A DNA stretch of 64,000 bases from Streptomyces olivochromogenes (GTDB lineage: Bacteria; Actinomycetota; Actinomycetes; Streptomycetales; Streptomycetaceae). The notes below the pieces were generated by a model that saw nothing but the letters and a program-made list of their open reading frames with translations, searched no databases and was not told the DNA's origin. Where the stretch lies: contig NZ_JADDRL010000017.1 of assembly GCF_021538895.1 (NCBI RefSeq), positions 1 through 64,000 of the forward strand. The letters run 5' to 3'. The position numbers were made by a program, and so were the translations under genes. This document shows positions 49,647-51,492 of the stretch, piece after piece. Numbering within the stretch: position 1 is the first letter of the stretch; every line of letters begins with the position of its first letter.

Positions 49647-49769
49647 CCAAGCTGTGATCCCTCGGTCACCGGTGCGCGGTGCGCGCAGGCCCGTCAACGC
49701 CCTCAGTCCCGCCCTTCAGGGTTCCCTCGGGCGGTTCGCCGACAGGCGGCGGCCGAGGGTACCCCCGTG

Positions 49770-50120
49770 CCGAGCGTCGGCATGGTGGCCGCCCCCGCGA
49801 CGGACCCGCGCGGCAGCGCCCTCACGGCGAGCGTGCTACCGCTGGCCCCGGCCGCCACAGCGGCGGGCGCGGTGAGGACCCTGCTCGGGCTGCGCGGGTG
49901 GTGGTATTCGGCAACCCGTTCTCGGGCGCCACCTCGGCCCCGCAGGTGCCGACCGAGGCCGTCGGGACGATCGGCCAGTGGCTGCCGCTGGGCGCGGGCG
50001 CGACCCTGCTGGGCTCGGTGTCGTTCTTCGACGGCGCGGCGGCCGCCCCCCGCCCTCGGCCTGGGCGCCGCACTGGCCGGCAGCGCTGCGGTCCCGCGCC
50101 ACGAGCATCGCGTCGGCCCG
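49770..50120 (+). pseudogene. Remnant of an ABC-2 type/YhgE-like permease C-terminus
   Basis: Pieces of a membrane permease lie in two frames. They are ALTASVLPLAPAATAAGAV with RTLLGLRG (about 49815-49900), then VVFGNPFSGATSAPQVPTEA and TIGQWLPLGAGATLLGSVSF (about 49903-50040), then ALGLGAALAGSA (about 50055-50090). The GNPFSG, WLP-GAG and SFFDG words match the C-terminal part of actinobacterial ABC permease-like proteins. The N-terminal two thirds are missing and there are at least two frameshifts. This accounts for the otherwise gene-free 49650-50133. Confidence 0.55.
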
Positions 50121-50133
50121 GAGAGCCGTACCC

Positions 50134-50412
50134 CTAGGCCCCGTTGGACCCCCGGTGCTCGGCGGCGATGCCGAAGCGCCTGCGTTCGCGGGACGCGGGG
50201 GCGGGGTCGCGGACGCCGGAGACCGAGCTGATCACCGGCTCCTCGGCGGGCTCCTGGAGCTCCTCCAGCCGTTCGAGGTCGGCGGCGGAGACGAGGGCGA
50301 CGAGAGGCTTGCCGTGCCGGGTCACGACGACACGCTCACCGCCGTACACCACCCGGTTGATCAGGTCGGCGAGCTCAGCCCTGGCTTGAGTCACCGGAAT
50401 CTCGTAGGCCAT
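50134..50412 (-). CDS. Phd/YefM family antitoxin-like protein, no adjacent toxin
   Basis: This is a 92-residue protein from ATG 50412 ([20 protein letters not shown]). The N-terminal Phd/YefM DNA-binding fold runs to about residue 55, with [21 protein letters not shown]. The C-terminal 40 residues are charged and probably disordered, ending in EHRGSNGA. No toxin gene of RelE, Doc or PIN type lies downstream; only a permease remnant does. It is divergent from a clpP paralogue and shares its promoter region. It may be an orphan regulator or a solitary antitoxin acting on a distant toxin. Confidence 0.83.
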
Positions 50413-50480
50413 ACCCACAGCTTACGGGGCTCCCCCGGACACACCGCCCCGAGGACAGCCATCCCAAGAGTCTGTACGTC

Positions 50481-50497
50481 CTGTACATTTTTTACAG
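50481..50497. promoter_or_regulatory. Dyad CTGTA-N7-TACAG between the antitoxin and clpP genes
   Basis: CTGTAcatttttTACAG-type symmetry (50481-50497), with a further CTGTAC at 50472-50477, lies in an AT-rich stretch in front of the clpP-like gene. Phd-type proteins bind such dyads, so the antitoxin could control itself and clpP. Confidence 0.5.
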
Positions 50498-50540
50498 ACA
50501 GCTCTGCCGGAGACGGCTCTGCCGACAGGAGGGGTATGCC

Positions 50541-51176
50541 ATGACCCGACCGTCCGCCCGCTATGTCCTGCCCGAGTTCACCGAGCGCACGAGCACCGGC
50601 CACCGCACGCTCGATCCGTACTCCAAGCTCCTTCAGGAGCGGATCGTCTTCCTCGGCACACCCATCGACGACACGTCGGCCAACGACGTGATGGCACAGT
50701 TCATGCACCTGGAGCACGACAACCCCGACCGGGACATCTCGCTGTACGTCAACTCCCCCGGCGGCTCCTTCAGCGCGGCGGCGGCGATCTACGACACGAT
50801 GCGGTACGTCACCTGCGACGTGGAGACGATCTGCTTGGGCCAGACGGGTTCCTGCGCCGCGCTGTTGCTCGCGGCCGGCACACCGGGCAAGCGGTTCACG
50901 CTGCCGGGCGCGCGCATGCTGCTCCGGCAGCCGTCCCTGCCCGAGCCGGTGCAGGGCCAGCCGAGCGACCTCGTCATCCAGGCCGAGGAGTTGACCCGGG
51001 TCCGCGCCCTCCTCGAAGAGATGCTCGCCCGGCACACGGGCCGCGACCCGGAGCAGGTGCACGAGGACCTGGAGCGGGACATGGTGCTCGACGCGCAAGG
51101 AGCGCTGGAGTACGGGCTGGTGGACGGGATCATCCCGAGCCGCAGGGCCTCGCGCGGCACGCCGGACGCGAGGTGA
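50541..51176 (+). CDS. ClpP-like protease subunit lacking the catalytic histidine
   Basis: This is a 211-residue ClpP/S14-fold protein from ATG 50541, with AGGAGGGG upstream. The ClpP fold is clear ([37 protein letters not shown]). The nucleophile Ser104 is in TGSCAA and Asp180 in [10 protein letters not shown]. At the catalytic His position, 25 residues after the serine, the sequence is [10 protein letters not shown] with Arg129 instead of the usual IHQP. The serine protease triad is thus broken, and it may work only in mixed rings with another ClpP, or as a regulator. A small unknown gene follows after 7 bases. Confidence 0.9.
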
Positions 51177-51183
51177 GCCGCCG

Positions 51184-51492
51184 ATGCTGCCACCGGAACT
51201 TCCGCCGCTGCCCGCGCTGACCCGTGCCGAGGGCGAGTTGATCGACCGATACCTGGACGTGGTCGATCTGCTCGGCCGGATCAACCCGGGCCGGCACGGG
51301 GACACGTACCGTGGACTGCGGGCGGCCCAGGCGCTGGTCGCCAAGGCCACGGACTTGCGCGACGCGCTGGCCCTGATGCACCGAAGGGGCGAGGCGGAGG
51401 TGCACGCGGCCACTCTGGCACGGGCGTTGCGGGTGCTCGACGGCGAACGACGCACCGCCCGCCTCGCCGTGCCGCCCGACGACACCTGCTGA
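51184..51492 (+). CDS. Uncharacterised small protein downstream of clpP
   Basis: This is a 102-residue protein starting at ATG 51184, with GAGGTGAG 8 bases upstream, inside the clpP stop region. It is predominantly helical (RAEGELIDRYLDVVDLLGR, RAAQALVAKATDLRDALALM, HAATLARALRVLDGERR). It has no signal peptide, membrane segment or cysteine pair. I do not recognise the family. Tight spacing with the clpP paralogue suggests they act together. Confidence 0.7.
   Translation: MLPPELPPLPALTRAEGELIDRYLDVVDLLGRINPGRHGDTYRGLRAAQALVAKATDLRDALALMHRRGEAEVHAATLARALRVLDGERRTARLAVPPDDTC

Follow-up and report, generated by a model that had tools for sequence, protein, structure and literature searches.

A Streptomyces ClpP2-type subunit with recurrent loss of its catalytic triad, encoded beside a solitary Phd antitoxin and a conserved promoter element

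Why would Streptomyces keep a ClpP paralogue that is missing its catalytic histidine, and why would this gene lie divergently from an antitoxin gene that has no toxin beside it? Both questions are raised by a locus of Streptomyces olivochromogenes (source genome of 10.2 Mb in 281 contigs) located in a stretch of 64,000 nucleotides, hereafter the window. The original prediction viewed the ClpP paralogue, the solitary antitoxin and a protein of 102 amino acids as a candidate regulatory module. Among the relatives, the three genes form a conserved unit and keep the same order across the genus, with the 102-aa gene of the window starting 7 nt past the clpP stop. Because this gene order and a 26-bp promoter element both recur genus-wide, the arrangement of the locus is more than chance.

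The clpP gene of the window (positions 50541–51176, plus strand) encodes a protein of 211 aa that matches the Pfam family CLP_protease (PF00574) over residues 20–200, i.e., the whole fold (E = 5.7e-66). Its Ser104 and Asp180 were predicted to be in place and Arg129 to occupy the position of the catalytic histidine. Alignment with the Ser-His-Asp ClpPs of the same genome leads to the same assignment: Ser104 (TCC, 50850–50852), Arg129 (CGG, 50925–50927) and Asp180 (GAC, 51078–51080) fill the triad columns. With Arg129, the protein departs from the Ser-His-Asp triad of an active ClpP peptidase and, judging from this residue, the subunit is very probably incapable of cutting alone, as had been anticipated. 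Its AlphaFold2 model presents a mean pLDDT of 72.6. A search of the source genome returned three ClpPs, namely the window copy and an adjacent pair on contig 68 that we assigned to ClpP1 and ClpP2 from gene order and motifs. The window ClpP shares 59% identity with its own ClpP2 and 45% with its own ClpP1, and the best eight chains that it matches among solved structures, which we take to be mycobacterial, carry the name ClpP "subunit 2". By these comparisons it belongs to the ClpP2 type and is more distant from ClpP1. In the Streptomyces nomenclature it probably corresponds to "ClpP5", a name given by elimination as the gene lies outside the two clpP pairs.

We then searched for this subunit in a sample of 121 genomes of the same genus (G000–G120), with one genome per species. 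The clpP5 gene was counted when the match was better than the range of the housekeeping ClpP2, and all the matches counted have the 102-aa gene behind them. It was found in 95 of the 121 genomes and is absent from 26. We added 80 titled loci, and all but two of these ClpP relatives name Streptomyces. This makes 176 loci, among which the window copy appears twice; without its second entry and without identical proteins, 168 distinct ClpP5 proteins remained. The triad is intact in 66 of them (34 of 95 in the one-per-species sample) and the remaining 102 lack at least one triad residue. Serine is retained in 122 proteins, aspartate in 150 and histidine in 87. The histidine is substituted by Gln (31), Arg (27), Ser (9), Glu (7), Gly (3), Asp (3) or Lys (1), the serine by Ala (29), Pro (7), Thr (6) or Gly (4), and the aspartate is altered in 18 members. 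A histidine at this position in orthologues had been named beforehand as the finding that would speak against the prediction; with 87 of the 168 proteins keeping it, the objection holds for half of the family, and the missing histidine of the window copy recurs in the other half. The ClpP5 family retains a median of 97.6% at the 87 columns that show no variation among 17 other ClpP rows (16 distinct). Several of the drifting columns adjoin the triad (103, 127, 128, 181 and 182), which suggests that the whole cutting groove of ClpP5 is relaxed.

The family was first chosen by its downstream 102-aa gene, and a quick ClpP tree then put exactly these proteins in one clade. This tree was built without the three triad columns and with 16 other ClpP2-type rows for comparison, from which all 168 ClpP5 proteins are set apart (SH-aLRT 78). 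The members with an intact triad occupy early-branching positions, and the histidine at position 129 looks ancestral in ClpP5 and lost many times. When losses were treated as irreversible, we counted approximately 28 independent losses of an intact triad, with serine lost 28, histidine 17 and aspartate 13 times, and 22 changes of triad state when free reversal was allowed. A conservative count, with branches below SH-aLRT 80, 90 and 95 collapsed, yielded 25, 18 and 11 triad losses, respectively. Triad loss and its recurrence are shown by these data, as are the purifying selection, the co-occurrence of the genes and the conservation of the operator described below.

We propose, with slightly better than even confidence, that ClpP5 is an accessory ClpP2-type, ClpR-like docking ring that pairs with ClpP1, is co-expressed with a helical partner and is encoded by an operon switched by Phd. 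ClpP5 would be maintained for the structure and the ATPase docking that its ring provides and not for proteolysis; like that of ClpP2, this ring would most likely pair with the ring of the catalytic subunit ClpP1. With such a pairing its own triad would be free to decay, and it has decayed many times. The small helical partner would be co-expressed with ClpP5 and may help assembly or adapt substrates, whereas the divergent solitary Phd/YefM protein would bind the element TGTACR-N3-TGTACA and switch the clpP5 operon. Since Clp proteases degrade antitoxins of this kind, the level of Phd could serve as a readout of Clp activity and determine how much of the accessory subunit is made. We infer the co-expression, the ring pairing, the binding of Phd and the feedback. 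Streptomyces ClpP is reported to degrade one antitoxin, RelB2 from S. cattleya, in E. coli (PMC4989188). The original prediction was that an inactive ClpP variant could modulate ring composition and antitoxin stability. An effect of ClpP5 on ring composition seems the most sensible reading; as for the antitoxin, it is more plausible that Phd regulates the clpP5 operon via a fixed operator than that ClpP5 governs how stable the antitoxin is. Viewing the locus as a regulatory module appears strengthened by the analysis.

The docking-ring proposal finds a precedent in S. hawaiiensis, where the ClpP1 ring cuts, the mutation S131A of ClpP2 leaves the mixed core fully active and the ATPases dock on ClpP2, with which cell work in S. 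lividans agrees (PMC9765437). The active site of ClpP2 is dispensable there because ClpP1 does the cutting (PMC9765437), which suggests that a ClpP2-type accessory subunit would need just its docking and ring surfaces. Tyr69 of the window protein, which we mapped to Tyr96 in the docking pocket of ClpP2, is a tyrosine in all 168 family members. Several observations count against a docking ring, however. Residue 89 (mapped to ClpP2 residue 116, also in docking) is mostly aromatic, but at least 11 of the 102 broken members have V or S there, and residue 67 (mapped to ClpP2 Ser94) varies, with S, A or T in 98 of these 102. Some non-catalytic columns drift as much as the triad or more (59, 145, 54, 61 and 78), and the support of the ClpP5 clade is modest (only SH-aLRT 78). 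Finally, ClpP5 is dispensable in places, since it is absent from 26 of the 121 genomes and reduced to a remnant in two.

The Phd open reading frame (50134–50418, minus strand) matches PF02604 (E = 4.3e-14) and TIGR01552 (E = 5e-17), the former over profile positions 4–51 of 74 with the C-terminal third unmatched. Relatives begin with MAYEIPVTQ, so the ATG at 50412 is the likely start (gene at 50134–50412), with a GTG at 50418 as the alternative. Among 151 distinct sequences, the N-terminal half is near-invariant and a C-terminal tail is conserved behind a variable linker; this tail may represent a degron or a partner-binding motif. The antitoxin was described as solitary, and we saw no toxin profile among its neighbors: the next gene encodes urease gamma (PF00547), clpP5 lies on the other side, and among five further open reading frames in and around the gap four have no Pfam match and one has a sub-threshold zinc-finger match. 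The locus thus lacks the adjacent cognate toxin of a type II toxin–antitoxin system. The N-terminal domain belongs to the same family as the antitoxins of YefM-YoeB and Phd-Doc, from which the window Phd differs in that no toxin gene was seen adjacent to it. A Phd orthologue (E < 1e-28) is present in all 95 genomes with ClpP5 versus 4 of the 26 without. The two genes lie within 350 bp of each other in 79 of these 95 genomes and are separated in the other 16, where phd lies at a distance of as much as 31 kb (G068) or, in G032, on a different contig; the intervening sequence varied in the cases examined.

The shared divergent promoter had been noted for a dyad, which lies within a conserved element of 26 bp (50473–50498, plus strand) that we propose as the Phd operator. 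The element, TGTACGTCCTGTACATTTTTTACAGA, comprises two TGTACR hexamers with a spacing of 9 bp and an additional arm, TTTACAGA. It was detected within seven mismatches in all 168 clpP5 promoters of the family (166 within six), with TAC at positions 3–5 and TGTAC at positions 10–14 invariant, and within eight mismatches in none of 167 background windows downstream. Its 21-bp core has a single copy in the source genome at up to three mismatches. A stricter pattern was found once each in 56 of 199 genomes, in 55 cases before clpP5 and in one (G087) before a clpP5 remnant. The co-conservation of element and Phd, together with a hexamer of the TGTACA type, suggests that Phd is likely the reader of the element. 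Operators of YefM consist of TGTACA hexamers (PMC7730913, PMC3303803) with centers 12 bp apart (PMC7730913). One hexamer of the element is this TGTACA core, but the pair (TGTACG and TGTACA) is spaced by 9 bp instead of 12 and so departs from the YefM-type operator. Unlike the operators of YefM-YoeB and Phd-Doc, the window element is kept at the operon of a protease subunit.

It is possible, although we think it rather unlikely, that the element has no relation to Phd and serves as the site of a different regulator or as an unusual promoter. When the two genes are separated, the element stays at clpP5: it is missing from the 140 bp before the displaced Phd in all 23 loci with gaps above 250 bp (19 of them above 350 bp), and it is missing before Phd in all seven further loci. 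Together with the 9-bp spacing, which is unlike that of YefM operators, this weakens the link between Phd and the operator on which our best explanation draws. Against another regulator, every genome with ClpP5 in the sample keeps Phd even when the genes are separated, one hexamer is the YefM core TGTACA, and the same core is paired with a diverged Phd in paralogous modules and in G010, although the neighboring gene differs. The element also adjoins Phd in L194, L195 and L199, three loci in which clpP5 is missing or shortened.

These paralogous modules (G058, G064 and G016; L198, L201 and L202) contain Phd, the operator core, a thioesterase-like gene, ClpP and a diverged 102-aa homologue. In all three, the diverged Phd lies beside the element core and the gene read as thioesterase-like sits between Phd and clpP. 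The triad of paralogous-module clpP was read as intact in L189 and L191. We also considered a PopR-like box (motif from PMC9775585) made of two TCTGCC copies that are spaced by 15 bp and lie close to the ribosome-binding site, and rejected it: among 28 promoters it is kept just partly, in the nearest relatives.

Returning to the docking ring, we compared ClpP5 with the other ClpPs of Streptomyces. Among 80 distinct ClpP rows, some of which come from other genera, Ser-His-Asp was found in 31 of the 31 rows with the ClpP2 motif and in 31 of the 31 with ClpP1 motifs. In 30 clpP3-clpP4 pairs (L272–L301), where the names rest on pair order and ClpP4 is the ClpP2-type member, ClpP3 presents Ser-His-Asp in all 30 and ClpP4 presents Gly for the catalytic histidine in all 30 (29 SGD and one SGE). 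The substitution in ClpP4 was first noticed in L212–L241. Another P2-type paralogue, in G004, has Gln at the position of the histidine. ClpP2 is of the same type as ClpP5 but keeps its triad. ClpP4 is both ClpP2-type and His-less like ClpP5, but it adjoins a Ser-His-Asp partner, ClpP3, whereas ClpP5 has no such neighbor. A link between triad loss in ClpP5 and the absence of ClpP3P4 was rejected: 33 of 42 were broken without P4 versus 10 of 27 with it (P = 0.0008; Fisher test), but a tree-aware test gave no support (five usable pairs, median P = 1). In the passages covered from PMC9765437, PMC12607617, PMC9775585, PMC8182300, PMC3258218, PMC4416901, PMC4673316 and PMC4989188, we met no statement of triad loss in ClpP4 or ClpP5.

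A close parallel is ClpR, a triad-less ClpP paralogue with the fold kept that is part of mixed cores; restoring its site in Synechococcus made the core no faster (PMC4673316). As in the ClpR of cyanobacteria and plastids, the triad of ClpP5 is lost and the rest is conserved, as judged from sequences alone. ClpP5 differs in that its triad loss is still incomplete and has recurred inside a single genus, that the subunit is ClpP2-type and that it adjoins a solitary antitoxin and a conserved element. A second parallel is ClpP_ADEP of S. hawaiiensis, which like ClpP5 is an accessory ClpP of Streptomyces and alters core composition: it binds ClpP1 and prevents active 14-mers (PMC12607617). With this precedent, ClpP5 might be a dominant-negative or poison subunit that joins assemblies of ClpP1 or ClpP2 and reduces or diverts the activity of Clp, a role to which triad loss would be harmless. 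We consider this unlikely. ClpP_ADEP is reportedly closest to ClpP1 and also forms an active core with ClpP2 (PMC12607617); it is encoded near ADEP biosynthesis genes, whereas ClpP5 is ClpP2-type and has urease and NlpC/P60 genes as near neighbors, so that the window ClpP presents neither of the traits that define ClpP_ADEP. In addition, a full triad is kept in 66 of the 168 ClpP5 members.

Alternatively, clpP5 could be a gene on its way to being lost, with relaxed constraint followed by triad decay and final deletion, and without function in the broken lineages. The absence of clpP5 from 26 of the 121 genomes, its remnants in G107 and G087 and the drift of the residues flanking the triad would all fit. 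The pairwise dN/dS values (NG86) fit as well to some extent: the median for clpP5 is 0.23 in 28 independent broken–broken pairs and 0.19 in 20 intact pairs, and the value is 0.28 in 12 mixed intact–broken pairs. The higher dN/dS of mixed pairs and the slightly higher dN/dS of broken pairs are as relaxed constraint would give and count against the docking ring. However, a dN/dS of 0.23 in broken pairs speaks against a gene being lost, as do the 67 of 195 columns that are at least 97% conserved among the 102 broken members, the operator kept in all 168 and two clades of 33 and 26 members that are entirely broken, the latter containing the window copy. The rest of the ClpP5 protein is under purifying selection despite triad loss, and we judge functionless decay to be quite improbable. 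In the two remnant loci (L194 in G107 and L195 in G087), clpP5 is a short remnant while Phd, the operator and the 102-aa gene are intact.

The gene behind clpP5 (51184–51492, plus strand) encodes a conserved 102-aa protein that is predicted to be all-helical. A profile search of this protein returned zero Pfam or NCBIfam matches, and 34 members of its family gave no convincing Pfam match. Its structure model suggests three helices with low confidence (pLDDT 65), and a fold search with this low-confidence model found nothing at E = 0.001 or better. PADLOC likewise gave no match for Phd, ClpP5 or the 102-aa protein. In all 95 sample genomes with clpP5 and in all 80 titled loci, the gene follows clpP5. 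Its match starts 4–54 nt past the stop of clpP5 in 167 of the 168 loci; the exception is L047, where the start of the BLAST match was oddly placed upstream. Within the genus it was found in 100 of the 121 genomes, i.e., all 95 with ClpP5 and five without, among which it is intact in G087 and G107 and partial or diverged in three. A stand-alone homologue with no clpP in the 6.4 kb examined was found in another family (G188; L200). Over 40 pairs picked from the clpP5 set, dN/dS is 0.135 for the 102-aa gene, 0.192 for phd and 0.242 for clpP5, and the 102-aa gene is thus the most constrained of the three. This low dN/dS, the intact gene kept with Phd and the operator beside the clpP5 remnants of G087 and G107, and the homologue of G188 could be taken to mean that Phd, the operator and the helical protein form the functional core, with ClpP5 as an optional passenger and the helical protein acting on ClpP1P2 or on something unrelated, but this is very unlikely, as the gene is intact without ClpP5 in only two genomes of the genus and its homologue again lies directly behind clpP in the paralogous modules of G058, G064 and G016.

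The ClpR-like subunits known from cyanobacteria and plastids represent the completed state. In the case of ClpP5, intact, half-broken and fully broken versions of one subunit coexist within one genus, and these natural variants therefore allow the change from protease to pseudoprotease to be followed while it takes place. The docking-ring reading also suggests a rule for asymmetric Clp cores, namely that cutting would not be needed from the docking ring; accessory docking rings would therefore lose their sites, with the loss fixed in ClpP4 (30 sampled) and in progress in ClpP5. The locus further offers a testable case of an antitoxin acting as an ordinary regulator of protein degradation. More speculatively, and with considerable doubt, a solitary antitoxin may have become the dedicated switch of an accessory Clp core with a pseudoprotease docking ring. 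Phd, itself a putative Clp substrate, would sense Clp capacity; a changed level of Phd would act through the operator to alter how much clpP5 and its helical partner are expressed, and ClpP1 would then be reassigned by the new docking ring to other ATPases or substrates.

Finally, between ureA and phd, we observed the remnant of a membrane-protein-like gene (49722–50032, plus strand) that is split over two frames. These two frames share 63% and 73% identity with an open reading frame in L196 and, by this comparison, the remnant is a decayed neighbor gene.
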